NCBI RefSeq assembly: GCF_017654485.1
Contig: NZ_CP061091.1
Span: 2,734,501 to 2,798,500, forward strand
Length of the DNA stretch: 64,000 nucleotides
Reading direction: 5' to 3'
Origin: Roseomonas marmotae
GTDB taxonomy: Bacteria; Pseudomonadota; Alphaproteobacteria; Acetobacterales; Acetobacteraceae
Positions 23,528 through 32,005 of the stretch are shown here, piece after piece; positions within the stretch are counted from its first letter, which is position 1, and the number at the start of each line of letters is the position of its first letter. Under the pieces are notes generated by a model. That model worked only from the letters and a program-made list of their open reading frames with translations. It did not search any database and was not told where the DNA came from. A program made the position numbers and the translations under genes.

Positions 23528-24229
23528 ATGACACCAGAAGTTAGAGTGGTGCGGGAAATCCCGCGTGTCCTGTCCGTTGCCTTGGCGATCTGCGGCTTTT
23601 CCTGGCAGGCCCTGGCGCAGGAAGTTCCGGCTGAAGCCGCCGAAGGGGAACATTTCTTCCTGCGGCTGGGCTATGGCCTGCTGCAGTATGAAACCAGCGG
23701 CCGCGCATCGGTGCACGGCGCCCGCATCGATGACGCGAAGATCGCGTTCGGCGGACAGTCCGCCGTCCTGCTGGAAGCCGGGTGGCGGTTCGCGCCGTCC
23801 TGGAGCGTATCCGTCCTGAGCGGCCTGCCGCCAACGGTGGCGCTGGAGGGGCGCAACGCCTTCGAGAGCTTCGGCACGGTAAGCAAGGTCACCTACGGCT
23901 CTGTCATGCTGGGCATGCAATACCACCCGCTGCAGTTCAGCCGCTTCGATCCCTATGTGGGGGCCGGCATCGACTATACCGCCATCTTCAACACCAGCGG
24001 CGGTTCCCTGCCGGGCCTGCATGTCCGGAACGCCTACGGGCCCGTCCTGCAGGCCGGCTTCGAATACGGGCTGACACGCAACCTCGCGCTGTACGCGGAT
24101 GCGCGGAAGGTGTGGCTGAAATTCCGCGCCAAGGGCATGGTGCCGCATCCGGTGGCGCCTTACCCCGTGCAGGTCTCCGTCACGCCAAACCCGGTCGTCC
24201 TGAGCGTCGGGCTGACCTACCGGTTCTGA
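23528..24229 (+). CDS. OmpW family outer membrane protein
   Basis: 233 residues with a signal peptide (VLSVALAICGFSWQALAQ) and alternating amphipathic strands of an eight-stranded barrel. Segments such as FFLRLGYGLLQYE, AVLLEAGWRFAPSWSV, VMLGMQYHPLQFSRFDPYVGAGIDYT and NLALYADARKVWLKF fit OmpW/AlkL. The final residues LSVGLTYRF end in Phe, as expected for recognition by the BAM complex. OmpW proteins pass small hydrophobic molecules across the outer membrane. Convergent with the GGDEF-EAL gene 22 bp away. Family call is confident; ligand unknown. Confidence 0.82.
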   Translation: MTPEVRVVREIPRVLSVALAICGFSWQALAQEVPAEAAEGEHFFLRLGYGLLQYETSGRASVHGARIDDAKIAFGGQSAVLLEAGWRFAPSWSVSVLSGLPPTVALEGRNAFESFGTVSKVTYGSVMLGMQYHPLQFSRFDPYVGAGIDYTAIFNTSGGSLPGLHVRNAYGPVLQAGFEYGLTRNLALYADARKVWLKFRAKGMVPHPVAPYPVQVSVTPNPVVLSVGLTYRF

Positions 24230-24250
24230 GTCTGGCCGGAGGCCGGCGGG

Positions 24251-26569
24251 TCAGGTGAGATACGCCGCGCGCCGGACCGGCATGGATTCCTGCGGGCGGC
24301 CCAGCAGGTATCCCTGCCCGAAATGGATACCATTCCGCCGGAGCCATTCGAGCTGCTCCGGCTCCTCGATACCTTCGGCGACGACATAGGCGTTCAGGTC
24401 CGCCGCCAGCCGCGTGATCGTGCGGTAGATGGCGGCGACCTTCGGGTCCGGCAGCCGCTTCGTGAAGCTGCGGTCGATCTTGATTCCATCCACCTCGATG
24501 CTGAGAAGATAGCTCAGGGATGAATAGCCGGTGCCGAAATCATCGAGCACCAGCTTGATCCCGTTGGCGCGTAGCGTCTGGAGCTGCTGCAGGGAGGATG
24601 GTGAAAAGTTCAGCAGCAGCGTCTCCGTAATCTCGAGCGCCAGCCGCCCGGGTTCCAGCCCGGTCTCGCCGAGGATGCGGGAGACGATGGCCGGCAGCTG
24701 GCCGCTGTCGAGCTGGCCGGGAGACAGGTTGACGTTGACCTGGATCGGCGCCTCCCATTCCACCGCGTCCTGGCAGGCCGCCCGCAGGATCAACTCGCCA
24801 AGCTGGTCGATCAGGCCGCATCTCTCCGCCGTCTCGACGAAGATGTTGGGCGGGATGGTCCCGCGAATCGGGTGCCGCCAGCGGGCGAGCGCCTCGGCGC
24901 AGATGACCTGGCCGGTCATGATGTCGACGATCGGCTGGTAGGCCACCGTGATCTGGCCCTGCTTGATAGCCTGGCTGAGCTCGACCTCCTGAAGCAGTCT
25001 CTTGCGGTACTCCTGCTCCATCCATGGCTCGAACAGGCAGGCAGTCCCCTTGCCCTGCTCCTTGGCCTTGTAGAGGGCCAGGTCGGTGAGCATCAGCATA
25101 CGCGGCGCATCGTCACCGACGCCCTCGGAGGCGCTGACGCCGAGGCTCGCCCCCGGCACGATCGTCAGGTCATTGATCCTGGTGGGCTGGGAGATGGCCT
25201 TGGCCAGCCGCGTCGCCACATCATGCCCCTGCTCCGCGTCCAGGTCATAAAGCAGCACAGCGAACTCATCGCCACCAAGCCGCCCAGCCGCGTCGCCAGA
25301 ACGGATCACAGCCTGGATGCGCTCCGCGACCGAGATCAGCAGGGCGTCGCCGATATGGTGGCCATAGCTGTCGTTCTTGCCCTTGAAGTCATCGAGGTCG
25401 ATGCTGGCGAGGGCGAAGGGACGCCCCTCCAGGCAGGCCTGCTCCACGAGGCTGACAAAGGCCTTGCGGTTCAGCAGGCCCGTCAGCCCGTCATGGTTCG
25501 CCATGAAGGCCAGCTTCCTGTCCGCCTCATAGCGCTCCGTGATGTCGCGGCCGATGCCGCGGAAGCCTGTCAGCCTGCCCTTGGTGTCGAAGACAGGATG
25601 GCCCGTGAGCGCGAACCAGCGCGTCTGCCCGCCCCCGGCCAGCGTCGTGACCATGTCCCGGAAGGCGAGTTGCCGGCGGAAGCAGTCTGCCAGGTCGGGC
25701 AGGCGGTGCTCCTCCGCTCTCCCGCCACCGGACTCAGGCCGCAGCAGGTCCGGCAGCCGCTTGCCGAGGAGGCTCCGTTCCTCCAGGCCGGTGGAACTCG
25801 CCAGATTGGCGGGAACGAAGCGGAGGTAGCCCTTCGCGTCGGTTTCCCACAGCCAGTCGGGCGAGCCTTCCCGGTATTCGCGCAGGAAGACCTTCACCGT
25901 CGTGATCTCCCGCTGCAACGCCGCCCGCGCCTCTGCTCGCCCGTTGAAAGTCCAGTTCGTGCAGAGGATGCCGCCCGCGGCGTAGAGCGTGAAGGACATG
26001 AAGGCGATGGTCGCCACCGGGTCGGGCTGCGTCATCGTGAAGGTCACGGCGATCACCGAGAGGATGGCATCCGGTATGAAGAAGCCGAATGCCACCGACA
26101 GCGGAACGCTGATGATGGGCGTGGAGACGACGCCGCAGGCCAGGGCCAGGATCAGCGCCATCTGGTTCGGCTCGCCGTAGAAGGCGAGGAGGTTGATGAC
26201 GCTGCCCCAGCTGAAGCCCAGGCCGATAAAAAGTCCCCTCGCCCGCCGCAGGAAGCCGAAGTCATCGGCGTCCTTCTTCCAACGCAGCGCGGAGCGGAAG
26301 ATCGCGCCGTAGAACAGGACGACCAGCGCGGCGCTGATGAGTATCAGCGGGCGTTCCAGCGGCCGGAAATGCGCAGAGATGAAGACGCAGTTGATGATGC
26401 CGGCGACGGGAAAGAGCAGCGACAGGAAGAACAACAGGCCCGCCTGCTCGCGCCGCAGCGCCACCCCCTGCTCCGGGGACAGCCGCCCGGGTTGGGAGAG
26501 CGTACGCAGGGCCGCCCTGGCCCGGTTGGCCAGGGTGGAGAAGGAGGGCCGGTTTTTCAACGCCGCCAT
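24251..26569 (-). CDS. Membrane PAS-GGDEF-EAL cyclic di-GMP protein
   Basis: 772 residues. About five to six membrane helices occupy residues 44-205, with no known sensory family recognised. A PAS domain (about 225-345) follows, then GGDEF (about 352-510) with intact GGDEF at 432-436 and the inhibitory RSGD I-site five residues upstream. The EAL domain (about 525-765) has AEALARWRHP, DDFGTGYSSL and EGIE. Both c-di-GMP synthesis and breakdown are therefore possible. ATG 26569 overlaps the end of the methyltransferase gene by 13 bp, so it is the last gene of the acyl-amino-acid operon. The membrane part may sense a lipid or membrane state (inference). Confidence 0.92.
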   Translation of the reverse strand: MAALKNRPSFSTLANRARAALRTLSQPGRLSPEQGVALRREQAGLLFFLSLLFPVAGIINCVFISAHFRPLERPLILISAALVVLFYGAIFRSALRWKKDADDFGFLRRARGLFIGLGFSWGSVINLLAFYGEPNQMALILALACGVVSTPIISVPLSVAFGFFIPDAILSVIAVTFTMTQPDPVATIAFMSFTLYAAGGILCTNWTFNGRAEARAALQREITTVKVFLREYREGSPDWLWETDAKGYLRFVPANLASSTGLEERSLLGKRLPDLLRPESGGGRAEEHRLPDLADCFRRQLAFRDMVTTLAGGGQTRWFALTGHPVFDTKGRLTGFRGIGRDITERYEADRKLAFMANHDGLTGLLNRKAFVSLVEQACLEGRPFALASIDLDDFKGKNDSYGHHIGDALLISVAERIQAVIRSGDAAGRLGGDEFAVLLYDLDAEQGHDVATRLAKAISQPTRINDLTIVPGASLGVSASEGVGDDAPRMLMLTDLALYKAKEQGKGTACLFEPWMEQEYRKRLLQEVELSQAIKQGQITVAYQPIVDIMTGQVICAEALARWRHPIRGTIPPNIFVETAERCGLIDQLGELILRAACQDAVEWEAPIQVNVNLSPGQLDSGQLPAIVSRILGETGLEPGRLALEITETLLLNFSPSSLQQLQTLRANGIKLVLDDFGTGYSSLSYLLSIEVDGIKIDRSFTKRLPDPKVAAIYRTITRLAADLNAYVVAEGIEEPEQLEWLRRNGIHFGQGYLLGRPQESMPVRRAAYLT

Positions 26570-27132
26570 ACCTGCGCGATGCGTGGCAGGAGCATGCCGG
26601 TCCGGCGCTGATACCCGGCATAGGACGCGGCCATCGGAGATTGAGAGAAGCGTGCCTCCTCGGCGCGCGCCGTCGCATAGTACCAGCCGATGAGCCCGAC
26701 TGCGGCGATCCATTGAAGGCCGCCGGCGGCGACCGCCGCACCAAGCCAGAAGATGCAGTACGACAGGTAGAAAGGGTGCCGGACATAGGCAAAGGGCCCG
26801 GCTTCATGCAGCATCTGCGGCGTATCGCCGGTATGGGCGAGATGGGGCGGGCTATGCTTCGTGGCCTGGACGGCCCACCAGAAGAGCGCCGTCGCGCCGG
26901 CCGAGGCGGCGATGGACACCATTCCCCCGCGCATGCCGACGCCATGGCTGAGGACGAGGAACAGGAACAACAGGGTGGCGGCGCTGCTGGCGAGGGTCAG
27001 CGCGCGCATTCCTGGCGGCATCCCGCCTTCCGCGCGGAAATGGCGCCGCAGGCCCCAGGCGAAGGAGCCAAGCGCCGCCGCCGCGGCCGCGATGATAAGG
27101 ACGGGCAACATGGAATCCCCGATGTTGTTCAT
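26557..27132 (-). CDS. Isoprenylcysteine carboxyl methyltransferase-family membrane protein
   Basis: 191 residues with about five membrane helices. The C-terminal block GPFAYVRHPFYLSYCIFWLG is the RHPxYxx cofactor-binding signature of the ICMT/phospholipid methyltransferase superfamily, followed by EEARFSQSPMAASYAGY (the EE...Y element). These enzymes use S-adenosylmethionine at the membrane to methylate carboxyl or amino groups of lipid-linked substrates. It starts 2 bp after the stop of the FeeM-like synthase and overlaps the GGDEF-EAL gene, so the three are one operon. Its partner suggests an N-acyl amino acid carboxylate as substrate (inference). Confidence 0.85.
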   Translation of the reverse strand: MNNIGDSMLPVLIIAAAAAALGSFAWGLRRHFRAEGGMPPGMRALTLASSAATLLFLFLVLSHGVGMRGGMVSIAASAGATALFWWAVQATKHSPPHLAHTGDTPQMLHEAGPFAYVRHPFYLSYCIFWLGAAVAAGGLQWIAAVGLIGWYYATARAEEARFSQSPMAASYAGYQRRTGMLLPRIAQVWRR

Positions 27133-27134
27133 GG

Positions 27135-27902
27135 TCAGGCCAGAGAGAGCGCGACAGGCTCCCCCCCGAAAAAGCCATTCAGGTTGCCGGTCGTGCCGCC
27201 CAGCGGGTCCATCACGGGAACCTTCTGCCGCAGTTTGTCGTAGCGTTGCCGGTCGCTGGCCATGAGCTGCATCTTACACGTCAGTCCGGGATAGGCACGC
27301 GGCTCAGACACCGCTTGATAACCAAGCCGGCGATAGAATGGTGCGTGGTTGGTGCGGACGCAGGCCAGATGGATCTGGCTGTGCGCGCAGAGCGCGATAT
27401 AACCGGCCATACGGTAGAGGAGGAAAACGAGACCCTGGTTGTTCTCGGCCTCCGGGCTGCGGACCAACCGCGTGACCTCGATGCCACGCCCGGCGAAGGG
27501 GTTGGCAGGGTCCGCATTCAGCAGCGCCTCCACCTCCTCCGGGTAAGTGTCCAGTGCTGGCGAAATAAGGTCGGAGCCGCGGGCGAGGAGGCAGGTCCGG
27601 ACCGAAGCAAGCGGGGTTTCATGGTCATAGATGACAATGGTGCTAGCGTTCGGCAACTCGTCGTACTTGTCCTTGAACAGCCCCGAGCTATTCGGTTGTA
27701 TATGCCCCGCGTTTAGGTAGCAGAGGTATCGAAGCTTGTAAGCATCTCGCCTCACCTCATCCGCAAGGGCGAGTCGCGCGTAGTACTGTGTGGGCTTGCT
27801 GAGCGGCTGCCTGGCCAATGCGGGCCTGACGCCCAGATGGGCGTGTTGTGCTGCTGCGGTAGTGTGAACAAGCGGGGTCGTGGAAGAAGAAGACGGCACC
27901 AT
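27135..27902 (-). CDS. N-acyl amino acid synthase-like protein (FeeM/LuxI-type acyltransferase fold)
   Basis: 255 residues. Elements shared with FeeM and acyl-homoserine-lactone synthases are DAYKLRYLCYLNAGHI (53-68), FKDKYDELPNASTIVIYD (76-93), LASVRTCL (98-105), EVTRLVRSPE (142-151) and NHAPFYRRLGYQ (185-196), the last being the GNAT-like end strand. FeeM joins a fatty acyl chain from acyl-ACP to an amino acid. ATG 27902 is preferred because AGGAG is four bases upstream; 27926 lacks a site. It is the first gene of a three-gene operon with an ICMT-like methylase and a c-di-GMP protein. No LuxR-type regulator is adjacent. Confidence 0.75.
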   Translation of the reverse strand: MVPSSSSTTPLVHTTAAAQHAHLGVRPALARQPLSKPTQYYARLALADEVRRDAYKLRYLCYLNAGHIQPNSSGLFKDKYDELPNASTIVIYDHETPLASVRTCLLARGSDLISPALDTYPEEVEALLNADPANPFAGRGIEVTRLVRSPEAENNQGLVFLLYRMAGYIALCAHSQIHLACVRTNHAPFYRRLGYQAVSEPRAYPGLTCKMQLMASDRQRYDKLRQKVPVMDPLGGTTGNLNGFFGGEPVALSLA

Positions 27903-28149
27903 AGATCTCCTGCGAAATGGCTCCACGCCGCAGGACAGGCGAGTTCAACCCGACGCTCCGGGCGTGGTTCACAGTGTTTACTATGGCTGTGGCGAAGGAT
28001 GCTGACGGGAACCGCTCGCCTGATGGCGCGGCAGCGCGGATCTCTTCCGTCAGCGAAATGCCACGACATACCCTTGCCCGCAGCATCGGGCGCGCGCAGG
28101 CGCAGGTTGCTCCCCCAGGCCATGAACCCCATGAGAACAGAGTTCAGCC

Positions 28150-28380
28150 GTGCAGTTCTTCCAACCTGTTGAAACCCTGTCGGACTTCTATTCCCTCGAT
28201 GAGGGAGACGTCCTTTGCGGGTATATGGACGGCATCCAGGGCCTGCCATGCGACGTCCAGCAGGTCTCACGATCCTACTGGCACGGCTGGCGCAATGGCG
28301 TGGTGGATGGCGGCTTCATCGAACCGGATGAAGCGCATCAGAAGCTCGAAGCCGCGTTCCTGAACTTTCATTCGCGGTAA
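28150..28380 (+). CDS. RMF-like small protein (76 aa)
   Basis: Starts at GTG 28150 with MQFFQPVETLSDFYSLDEGD. Residues 24-50 contain GYMDGIQG, then C34, then RSYWHGWRNG, closely matching the GYxxGxxG...C...RxxWxxGWR pattern of ribosome modulation factor, which binds stationary-phase ribosomes and makes inactive dimers. An acidic N-terminal extension of about 22 residues and a helical tail are additional. It diverges from the FeeM-like operon across 247 bases. The ribosome site is weak. Homology to RMF is judged from motif only. Confidence 0.6.
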   Translation: MQFFQPVETLSDFYSLDEGDVLCGYMDGIQGLPCDVQQVSRSYWHGWRNGVVDGGFIEPDEAHQKLEAAFLNFHSR

Positions 28381-29383: not shown

Positions 29384-30419
29384 TCATACGCCAACGTGCC
29401 CTGGCGCGGCATCCAGACGGAAATCTGTGCCATCGCCCCACATCCGGTGAAGGATCGTCCCGATCCGCCGTGCCAAGGCCACCATCGCCCGTTTGATGCC
29501 TCGCCGCTGCCGCACTTGGACAGCCCAGCTTCTGAGCCAGGATGCGGGGCCCCGATGCATCAACACGGTGGCCGCCTGGCACAAGGCTCGTCGGAGATTG
29601 GCATCCCCGGCCCGCGTGATGCCGCCTGTGACATCGCGTTCGCCGGATTGATGGCGCGATGGCGTCAGGCCAACCCATGGATCAACCTTCTTGGACGAGG
29701 TGGAACCGGGACGGATCATCGACGGCCGAACGAAAGGTCAAGGCGACCACGGCGCCGACGCCCGGCATGGTCATCATGCGGCAGCAGATGGGATCATCCT
29801 TGGCCAGCACCCGAACCACACGCTCGAGCCCGGCCAGTTCCTGGCGTAGGCCGTCGCGCGCCCGGAGCATCGGAGCCGAGGCAGCTTCCAGCATGGCATT
29901 GCCCTCAACCAGCTCGCGAACCCGGACCTCAAAGCGACCGCGCGAGATCTGCCCTACCTGGAGTCCGAAGTTCCTCAACAAGCCGCGCAGCGACAACTCG
30001 ATCGCGATCATGCTCTGCTGGATGGCTTTGCGCGCGCCAAGTAAGGCACGGACTTCCTGGGCCGAGACGGATTTGCAGTGCACCGGCCTGAACCAGCCCA
30101 GGTGGAGCAGCCGCGCGATGCCCTCGGCATCGCGCCGATCGGTCTTGATCGGCATCGCCTGCAAGGCCCCTTTGACCTGACGGGTCTCCATAAGAACGAC
30201 ATCTGCGCCAGCCTCGCTGAGGCCGCGATGCAGCCACTGCGACAAAGGCCCGGCCTCAAGACCCATCATGGTCACTTCGCCGTCCAAGCTGCCCGTGAAC
30301 TGCGCGATCACCGCCGGATCGCTGGCAACCTGCGCCTCCCTCACGATCTTGCCGTGCTCATTGAGCGCGCAGACCGCTGTCTTGGCCAAGAGAGAATCAC
30401 GCAGCGCTCTGTGGCTCAA
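29384..30419 (-). pseudogene. IS110-family transposase, frameshifted
   Basis: Two overlapping minus-strand frames join into one IS110 recombinase. The first (30419 to 29682) has LAKTAVCALNEHGKIV, KTDRRDAEGIARLL and MMTMPGVGAVVALTFRSAVDDPSRF, then runs to a stop. The second (29719 to 29384) continues with SSKKVDPWVGLTPSRHQSGE and GDANLRRALCQAA, the conserved C-terminal Ser domain. One base lost or gained near 29700 explains the switch. The extreme N-terminus, normally GLDVS, is not recognisable, and the adjoining sequence resembles the end of another IS, so the 5' end is probably truncated. Not functional as it stands. Confidence 0.85.
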
Positions 30420-30723: not shown

Positions 30724-32005
30724 GGACACTTCGAAAAACCTCGCTGTTGACGCGCTGAGCTGATTCACTGAGGTCATCAGCGGAGGCAGTGGCGATGGCG
30801 GATCAGCCGGGCTTCTTCGATGTGGATGAGCGGTATGCCGCGCTTTCTGCGGCGGGCGACCCACTGGAGCGCCTTTCGAAGGTGGTCGACTTCGAGATTT
30901 TCCGTCCCGTGCTGGATGCGGCGCTGGCGCGCTCGGACCGCAGCCGCGGCGGACGCCCGCCCTATGATGCGGTGCTGATGTTCCGCATCCTGGTGTTGCA
31001 GGCGCTCTACAGCCTCTCCGACGAGCAGGCCGAGTTCCAACTGCGCGACCGGCTGTCCTTCATGCGCTTCGTGGGGCTTGCCCTGCACCAGGTGGTGCCC
31101 GATGCCAAGACGATCTGGCTGTATCGCGAGCAGCTCAAGCAGGCGGGTGCCATGGAGGGGCTGTTCCGCCGCTTTGACGAGGTGCTGGCGGCCAAAGGTT
31201 TTCTCGCCATGGGCGGGCAGATCATCGATGCCACGATCATCGCCGCGCCGCGCCAGAAACTCACCATCGAGGAGAAGGCCACCATCCGGGAGGGCGGCAC
31301 GCCAGAGGGCTGGTCCCGTGCCAAGAGGGCGCAGAAGGATCGGGATGCCCGGTGGACGCTCAAGCGCGGTAAAGCCAAGCCCAAGCCAGAAGGCAATCAG
31401 CGCCAGGTCATCCAGATCGCGGTGCCCATCTTCGGTTACAAGAGCCATATCGGCATCGACCGGCGGCATGGATTGATCCGCCGCTGGACGGTCACCGATG
31501 CCGCTCAGCACGACAGTCGCAGCTTTCCCGTCCTGCTGGATCCCGAGAACACGGCCAGCCGCGTTTGGGCGGACACGGCCTACCGCACCAAGCGCAATCT
31601 GAAAGTGCTGGAGCAGCGCGGCCTGTCCGAGAGGATCCAGTTCCGCCGTCCGCCGCGGCGCCAGCTCTCCGAACAACAGGCGAAGGCCAATGCCACACGC
31701 GCCCGGATCCGCTCGGGCATCGAGCACGTCTTCGCCGCCCAGAAGCACCGTATGAGGCTGTTCGTCCGCACCATCGGCATCGCTCGGGCACAGGTGAAGA
31801 TCGGCATGGCCAATCTCGCCTATAACTTCACCCGCTTGGCGTGGCTCAGCACCCGAACTGCGCCCGCATAACCTCGTAGCCCCCACCAAGGGCGGCACTC
31901 GCCGTCCAAAGCCGGTGACCTGGCGGCGTCAGCAAGGGTATGTCACAGCCTGAGGCAACGATCCTGCTCGCCCGCCCGCGCAGCGGCCGGTAATTCGAGG
32001 GGTCC
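30724..32005 (+). mobile_element. IS5-family insertion sequence (inner, 1282 bp)
   Basis: The left end GGACACTTCGAAAAACC matches the reverse complement of the right end, GGACCCCTCGAATTACC, at 13 of 17 positions. The element is bounded by AGAT duplications and carries one intact transposase gene. It inserted into the older IS5-family transposase. A deleted relative of this IS lies at 60.9-61.1 kb. Confidence 0.88.
30795..31871 (+). CDS. IS5-family transposase, intact
   Basis: 358 residues. The N-terminal domain has RSRGGRPPYDAVLMFRILVL and LSDEQAEFQLRDRLSFMRF, typical of IS5 group transposases. The DDE catalytic core is visible: Asp in GQIIDATIIAAP, Asp in VWADTAYRTKRN and Glu in RSGIEHVFAAQKHRM. 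ATG 30795 is favoured because GGAGG is eight bases upstream; GTG 30789 is too close. No stop or frameshift, and ends and target duplication are present, so this element may still be mobile. Confidence 0.92.
   Translation: MADQPGFFDVDERYAALSAAGDPLERLSKVVDFEIFRPVLDAALARSDRSRGGRPPYDAVLMFRILVLQALYSLSDEQAEFQLRDRLSFMRFVGLALHQVVPDAKTIWLYREQLKQAGAMEGLFRRFDEVLAAKGFLAMGGQIIDATIIAAPRQKLTIEEKATIREGGTPEGWSRAKRAQKDRDARWTLKRGKAKPKPEGNQRQVIQIAVPIFGYKSHIGIDRRHGLIRRWTVTDAAQHDSRSFPVLLDPENTASRVWADTAYRTKRNLKVLEQRGLSERIQFRRPPRRQLSEQQAKANATRARIRSGIEHVFAAQKHRMRLFVRTIGIARAQVKIGMANLAYNFTRLAWLSTRTAPA

Follow-up and report, generated by a model that had tools for sequence, protein, structure and literature searches.

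A conserved trio of FeeM-type synthase, membrane methyltransferase and membrane-bound GGDEF-EAL protein is probably an undescribed lipid signalling system of Acetobacteraceae

We analysed a 64,000-nt stretch of the Roseomonas marmotae contig NZ_CP061091.1 (hereafter the window, to whose positions all coordinates refer), in which three minus-strand genes form a compact operon. The first (27135..27902; 255 residues) encodes a FeeM-type N-acyl amino acid synthase, the second (26557..27132; 191 residues) a membrane methyltransferase of the ICMT/PEMT superfamily, and the third (24251..26569; 772 residues) a protein in which a six-helix membrane domain precedes PAS, GGDEF and EAL domains. A 2-bp gap separates feeM from the methyltransferase gene, which in turn overlaps the GGDEF-EAL gene by 13 bp, exactly the placement given in an earlier reading of this DNA made from its letters alone (hereafter the sequence-only reading). 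A profile search of the whole genome at E <= 0.001 returned a single match each for FeeM and PEMT and seven for EAL; because these are so few, the trio is not a chance assembly.

The synthase matches PF21926 at 115.6 bits, against a Pfam cut-off of 27. Its predicted structure, with a predicted local distance difference test (pLDDT) score of 88.3, has FeeM as its best match in the PDB: the first six Foldseek rows are chains of 2g0b (best E 3.5e-12), and the next structural matches after FeeM itself are acyl-homoserine-lactone (AHL) synthases. The FeeM/LuxI fold that the sequence-only reading expected of this protein is thus present in the predicted model. A sequence search of the protein against the PDB gave no significant match. 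An assignment as AHL autoinducer synthase was discarded, as the protein has no Autoind_synth (PF00765) match at E <= 1. Residue E142, a putative counterpart of the FeeM catalytic Glu95, is invariant in 50/50 clade rows but aligns with Asp in six distant family members. The nearest rows on the FeeM tree are those of Pseudoroseomonas wenyumeiae (91%) and P. ludipueritiae. Family and fold point to an enzyme that would join a long acyl chain from acyl carrier protein (ACP) to an amino acid; products of FeeM-type enzymes bear a free carboxyl.

The methyltransferase scores 23.1 bits with PEMT (Pfam cut-off 25) and 24.5 bits with the ICMT family NF040696 (NCBIfam cut-off 160), and NCBIfam also returns the methanethiol methyltransferase MddA at 22.5 bits. 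Across its family, PEMT matches 20/20 and ICMT 19/20 members at E <= 0.01, and the family profile retrieves from the PDB 8xku (AtTam46; E 7.9e-12), 4a2n (E 8.2e-9), 5v7p (E 2.2e-7) and then 5vg9, the last three being solved ICMTs. The segments RHPFY and EE are invariant in 20/20 rows. A C-terminal core with RHPxY and EE, which we take to be the motifs of ICMT and PEMT enzymes, together with the similarity to solved ICMT/PEMT members, places the protein in that superfamily. Its description as an "ICMT-like methylase" in the sequence-only reading therefore holds at the level of the superfamily and fails at that of the curated ICMT cut-offs, which are missed. From its relatives, the enzyme would methylate the carboxyl of a lipid-bearing amino acid. 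An unlikely alternative, compatible with the other readings, is that it is a membrane neighbour of the synthase that acts on something else, such as a phospholipid amine or a sulfur compound. The PEMT and ICMT counts, the MddA score, the top profile match and the lack of any passed curated cut-off would all suit such a substrate, but the next three PDB matches are ICMTs, the alignment with 4a2n spans the C-terminal TG..P motif, the methyltransferase clade is nearly confined to FeeM loci, and a class I methyltransferase fills the same place beside FeeM in Sulfitobacter (see below for the last two).

In the third protein, the Pfam cut-offs are exceeded by PAS_4 (PF08448, residues 235-348, 25526..25867; 43.8 bits), GGDEF (PF00990, residues 357-507, 25049..25501, including the I-site; 120.8 bits) and EAL (PF00563, residues 530-759, 24293..24982; 233.7 bits), all on the minus strand. 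The GGDEF, I-site RxxD and EAL motifs are all intact; among relatives the GGDEF motif is identical in 44/44 aligned rows and the I-site is gone in a few. The N-terminus is modelled as six long membrane helices (pLDDT 90.0), which form a candidate receptor domain (residues 32-234, 25868..26476, minus strand). Pfam, motifs and model thus agree with the "5-6 helix membrane part, PAS, and intact GGDEF, I-site and EAL motifs" seen by the sequence-only reading. For the membrane domain itself, no Pfam family exceeded its cut-off and Foldseek gave no significant match (best E 0.2). Six-helix membrane domains are described as lipid receptors in adenylyl cyclases (PMC11606603).

The association of these genes was followed in 299 genomes of a family that we take to be Acetobacteraceae. 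PF21926 matched in 96 of them, over its cut-off in 58, and we examined all 43 FeeM places of at least 84 bits outside the window together with 17 weaker ones; 42 of the 43 strong places, and the window, score more than 200 bits on a FeeM profile built here. Among the 43 FeeM loci over 200 bits, a GGDEF-EAL neighbour lies within 1 kb in 40 and a methyltransferase is present in 24. Of the three lacking GGDEF-EAL, two (L054 and L057) reach contig ends and the third (L074) has neither partner. Sixteen of the 17 weaker places are without either partner, and the 17th, in genome G126, is a broken FeeM with both. In that locus (L079), as in Endobacter medicaginis (L054/L107), feeM is split into two frames and the methyltransferase gene next to it looks complete.

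Searches that started from the partners led back to FeeM. A methyltransferase profile found 27 places at 205-250 bits, the next paralogue scoring 57 bits, and 26 of the 27 lie within 3.3 kb of FeeM; the exception, G187 (L178, G187:C11), carries methyltransferase and receptor genes and no FeeM match in the genome at E <= 0.001. A frame beside its receptor gene is presumably transposase-like. With the window sequence alone as query, the membrane domain was found at 33 places in 30 genomes, 31 of them within 2.6 kb of FeeM, the others being half of a gene severed by a contig end and G187. A profile of the same domain found 52 places, 43 of them near FeeM; the places that score over 100 bits also number 43, and of these 42 are near FeeM. 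Profiles A2 and A4, the latter that of the membrane domain, were built from FeeM-linked loci, so their linkage counts lean that way; the 31/33 obtained with the window sequence alone is free of that bias. The same membrane domain also occurs away from any FeeM at L188-L192, where it may belong to orphan receptors. In 385 genomes spread over the class, FeeM was found at E <= 1e-10 in five and a membrane-domain match in five.

A second set of loci was gathered by scanning GTDB representatives with the methyltransferase alignment, which yielded 238 relatives; the counts that follow refer to the best 80 of these 238, in which the methyltransferase is present by construction (the FeeM-gathered rate is the 24/43 given above). 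At a clade threshold of 200 bits or more, 51/80 qualify. FeeM is in the locus in 51/51, within 300 bp in 48 and about 3.2 kb off, beyond the GGDEF-EAL gene, in three, and the gene order varies. A GGDEF-EAL gene lies within 2 kb or is fused in 47/51, and the other four loci (L107, L121, L151 and L162) are cut by a contig end. The clade covers Pseudoroseomonas, Roseomonas, Endobacter, Rhodopila, Gluconobacter, Acidocella, Aureimonas, Jiella, Fulvimarina and Tianweitania; two of these genera, Aureimonas and Tianweitania, were looked up and are Hyphomicrobiales, to which Jiella and Fulvimarina presumably also belong. Among the 29 more distant named relatives, FeeM is in the locus in two, those of Pelagibacterium and Methylobacterium trifolii (L156), and in the latter the FeeM and methyltransferase genes share a single base. 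The best 80 of the 238 include no Roseovarius. The 29 lower-scoring loci, among L122-L171, come from Rhizobium, Mesorhizobium, Devosia and others and hold a methyltransferase of a related subfamily; in 14/29 a further protein is clustered near it, which we take from its look to be an alpha/beta hydrolase. With linkages of 26/27, 31/33 and 51/51, the neighbourhood that the sequence-only reading proposed to seek in other Acetobacteraceae is indeed conserved there. The trio as a whole is a conserved module, the parts of which are intact, co-inherited and, in this family, almost confined to each other's company.

The physical association goes as far as fusion: the methyltransferase and the membrane-PAS-GGDEF-EAL protein are read as one open frame in Roseomonas acroporae, in three Rhodopila bins and in L036 and L044. 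In a 78-row FeeM tree, quickly built and with long branches, this fusion needs three changes and the presence of the methyltransferase two. Eighteen methyltransferase-free loci form one group (support 92, inner forks under 80), and L072, which keeps a methyltransferase remnant, stands apart from it. The nesting of Hyphomicrobiales rows among Roseomonas-type rows suggests transfer. When window positions 12001-42000 are compared with the P. wenyumeiae locus, DNA similarity is confined to about 23565-28365; in P. ludipueritiae the similar span is nearly the same, ending about 470 bases further along on one side. Eight genomes hold 17 loci with both FeeM and the membrane domain. In 16/17 of these the nearest FeeM is in another genome and is not a paralogue, in 17/17 the membrane domain resembles that of the matching locus elsewhere more closely than any paralogue of its own, and in 12/17 FeeM and the membrane domain agree on the nearest locus. 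That three unrelated genes are simply held together by vertical inheritance is scarcely credible on this record. Many of the loci do come from one family, but the module also occurs in Aureimonas, Jiella, Fulvimarina and Tianweitania and in several gene orders, similarity to P. wenyumeiae stops close to the trio, the tree holds three fusions, and genomes with several copies hold matched pairs; the 26/27 and 31/33 linkages to FeeM, together with repeated fusion, contradict ordinary co-location.

Across 40 loci, distances correlate with those of FeeM at 0.67 for the membrane domain, 0.61 for EAL, 0.37 for GGDEF and 0.34 for PAS, a ranking that is only suggestive, as domain lengths and rates differ. 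It bears on the most serious of the rival explanations, which are not all mutually exclusive: that the GGDEF-EAL protein is a controller, which senses something else and regulates synthesis by local cyclic di-GMP (c-di-GMP) or by binding the synthase. We regard this as somewhat unlikely. Other N-acyl amino acid synthases (NAS), Nas343 and Nas354, are described as fused to the c-di-GMP-binding PilZ domain, so such enzymes can be linked to c-di-GMP, and regulation by it has been proposed there (PMC4897644); in another system, the FI domain of RpfR is reported to restrain the synthase RpfF by direct contact (PMC6361424). Against a controller stand the absence of any PilZ match in a Pfam scan of the three window proteins, the membrane domain's top place in the correlation with FeeM, though EAL follows at 0.61, and the replacement of the GGDEF-EAL protein by a histidine kinase in Loktanella and Sulfitobacter, a better fit to a sensor than to a c-di-GMP enzyme that regulates the synthase.

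The kinases came to light in a plasmid search, in which three FeeM queries matched 15 different records, 11 of which were looked into. By annotation or profile, an adjacent sensor protein was recognised in 7/11 (Loktanella 2, Sulfitobacter 3, Shinella 1, Rhizobium tumorigenes 1), the second Loktanella kinase being known from its annotation alone, as ATP-binding protein. No sensor was recognised in the remaining four (Acidiphilium, Palleronia, Deinococcus and R. leguminosarum), whose nameless neighbours were not scanned; the unannotated R. leguminosarum record was covered by the GGDEF, EAL, methyltransferase and membrane-domain profiles only. On two Loktanella salsilacus plasmids the methyltransferase and FeeM genes overlap by 4 bases. 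The methyltransferase passes the cut-offs of DUF1295 (28.2 bits) and PEMT (28.2 bits), stays under that of ICMT (20.7 bits), and is annotated in one record as of the isoprenylcysteine carboxylmethyltransferase family. The FeeM protein is annotated as an acyl-homoserine-lactone synthase and scores 129.9 bits with FeeM versus 24.6 with Autoind_synth (cut-off 24). The gene found upstream of the pair encodes HisKA and HATPase domains. On three Sulfitobacter plasmids, which stem from two strains, genes for a methyltransferase, FeeM and a sensor kinase follow one another; the methyltransferase is of class I on the first of the three, the one scanned for domains, and the kinase membrane regions are 35-36% identical to those of Loktanella. 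That methyltransferases of two different kinds accompany FeeM, each together with one shared type of sensor, favours methylation of the FeeM product.

Such a product has a published counterpart. Methyl esters have been published from Loktanella, strain D12_1.68 and Loktanella sp. F13, F14 and D3 being named in connection with them (PMC6296433). A further paper treats the compounds as known and reports no candidate genes for their synthesis (PMC11580390), and a genome note names no candidate genes for methyl ester synthesis (PMC4582587). The methyl-ester idea is supported from outside by the Loktanella gene pair and the published esters of the genus: the known esters are the product expected of FeeM plus a carboxyl methyltransferase, although their tie to these genes is a prediction. 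Quite improbable, in our judgement, is that the product serves mainly as surfactant, antibiotic or membrane lipid and that the GGDEF-EAL gene merely coordinates its making with biofilm life. N-acyltyrosines are described as surface-active and antibiotic (PMC4897644), the methyl esters as having some antimicrobial and antialgal activity (PMC6296433), and in the vicinity of the Loktanella pair there are genes with the annotations HlyD and DHA2 exporter, but a sensor-type partner is retained where the methyltransferase is absent.

Two further kinds of FeeM neighbourhood were seen. On a Deinococcus actinosclerus plasmid (L199), FeeM comes after a gene with the annotation fatty acid desaturase, and one place further along lies a gene annotated as chemotaxis protein CheR, which would be another type of methyltransferase. 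Other FeeM subfamilies stand beside GGDEF-EAL genes in Pelagibacterium, an 8-Mb alphaproteobacterium, Shinella and Rhizobium tumorigenes (L141, L179, L201 and L202), and the N-terminal membrane regions of these four GGDEF-EAL proteins gave no match to that of the window.

We lean, if only slightly, towards explaining the trio as a self-contained lipid signalling module in which FeeM and the methyltransferase supply a lipid that a membrane sensor converts into a c-di-GMP response. FeeM would condense the long acyl chain of an acyl-ACP with an amino acid, and the methyltransferase would esterify the free carboxyl of the resulting N-acyl amino acid, giving a neutral methyl ester that partitions into membranes. 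Within the bilayer, the six-helix domain at the N-terminus of the GGDEF-EAL protein would sense this lipid and, via PAS, shift the balance between c-di-GMP synthesis and breakdown. The sequence-only reading had put forward a lipid signal of this kind; the conserved neighbourhood and the FeeM fold support it, whereas the ICMT match is at superfamily level and 18 loci form a clade without methyltransferase.

Several observations weigh against this explanation. The methyltransferase is missing in recognisable form from 19 of the 43 strong FeeM loci, including L072 with its remnant, and a FeeM clade of 18 loci has the GGDEF-EAL partner in 17 and the methyltransferase in none; conversely, L032 (FeeM 151 bits, outside the 43) has a methyltransferase upstream and no GGDEF-EAL neighbour. 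In the window, the methyltransferase scores 21.6 bits with ICMT (PF04140), below the Pfam cut-off of 24, and the top PDB match of its family profile, 8xku, is no ICMT by name. Nine of the 52 membrane-domain matches are away from FeeM: a split gene (G001:C6), G187, receptor-like genes without synthase in G153 (twice), G263, G132 and G219, and weak matches in G022 and G295. Three further weak matches in the class search (29-57 bits), outside the family, do not adjoin FeeM. In hhalign, the membrane domain (A4) has no detectable homology to the sensor domains of the Loktanella and Sulfitobacter kinases (A5) or to the N-termini of other FeeM-linked GGDEF-EAL proteins (A6), and A5 and A6 likewise do not match each other; as A5 and A6 hold four rows each, these nulls exclude little. 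Finally, the Loktanella gene pair matches the published ester producers at the level of the genus only. Because the methyltransferase-free clade keeps its partner in 17/18 loci, the core pair of FeeM and GGDEF-EAL protein does not depend on methylation, and in that clade the signal is probably the unmethylated lipid.

A wider proposal, which we hold tentatively and consider slightly less likely than not, is that these loci represent a new class of lipid signalling between bacterial cells. N-acyl amino acids or their methyl esters, produced by FeeM plus a carboxyl methyltransferase, would be detected by a matched multi-helix membrane receptor whose output can be exchanged: GGDEF-EAL in Acetobacteraceae and in some Hyphomicrobiales, a histidine kinase in Roseobacteraceae.

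The conserved unit is larger than the sequence-only reading described, as it includes in relatives two flanking genes, one for a 76-residue protein divergent from feeM (28150..28380, plus strand) and one for an OmpW-like outer membrane protein convergent with the operon (23528..24229, plus strand; PF03922, 65.9 bits). A homologue of the small protein is found in 28 of the 51 named methyltransferase-clade loci, and its gene is divergent from feeM in 28/28, even in L101, L103 and L104, where feeM itself is inverted. Its family conserves the motif WHGW.NG, the gene is single-copy in the window's genome, and the window protein has no Pfam or NCBIfam match at E <= 1. The name ribosome modulation factor, carried by 1/36 listed proteins (query included) on the word of one source, was rejected, there being no Pfam match. 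The OmpW-like homologue (phmmer E <= 1e-5) is found in 7/80 named loci, all seven of Pseudoroseomonas or Roseomonas. Just outside the conserved block lie frames at 29682-30419 (minus strand) and 30789-31871 (plus strand), both of which we take to be transposase-like. The stretch at window positions 30724-31870 recurs with 86% identity in Pseudoroseomonas oryzae (L105), about 4 kb away from the trio there.

Among known systems, RpfF/RpfR of Burkholderia and Cronobacter is the closest working analogue, although of a different family. RpfF belongs to a fold other than that of FeeM. There too, the gene of a synthase of a fatty-acid-derived signal (BDSF) adjoins that of a PAS-GGDEF-EAL receptor; RpfF is described as dehydrating and hydrolysing acyl-ACP to the fatty acid, and RpfR as binding both signal and RpfF and altering c-di-GMP (PMC6361424). 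RpfR, however, starts with the soluble FI domain where the window protein has six membrane helices, and RpfF/RpfR has no methyltransferase, while the window synthase is of the FeeM family and not of the RpfF kind. LuxI/LuxR resembles the module as a synthase-receptor pair, and the FeeM model lies near AHL synthases; it differs in that the window FeeM lacks an Autoind_synth match and is paired with a membrane-bound c-di-GMP enzyme. ImcA-type membrane diguanylate cyclases and the six-helix membrane domains of adenylyl cyclases also count among the closest known systems. FeeM, NasY, Nas343 and Nas354 share the Pfam family and fold of the window synthase, and known NAS genes are described as lone, in other pathways, or tied to PEP-CTERM/exosortase genes (PMC4897644, citing Craig et al. 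2011). A survey of metabolite genes in Acetobacteraceae gives NasY homologues from three Acidiphilium type strains only (PMC8776678), so the FeeM genes described here are unreported there. In the open-licence literature we found no N-acyl amino acid synthase with an ICMT-like enzyme or a GGDEF protein, and no paper on such a synthase with a kinase, an ester or an autoinducer.

The locus is thus probably an undescribed lipid signalling system, and it may lead to the genes responsible for a family of bacterial lipids that is known but so far unexplained. It offers that family a role as signal, a candidate receptor and a two-gene biosynthesis open to test in Escherichia coli, and cultured bacteria, Gluconobacter and Acidocella among them, carry the module. 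If true, the proposal would add a class of synthase-receptor pairs whose receptor is a membrane-bound enzyme of c-di-GMP turnover.

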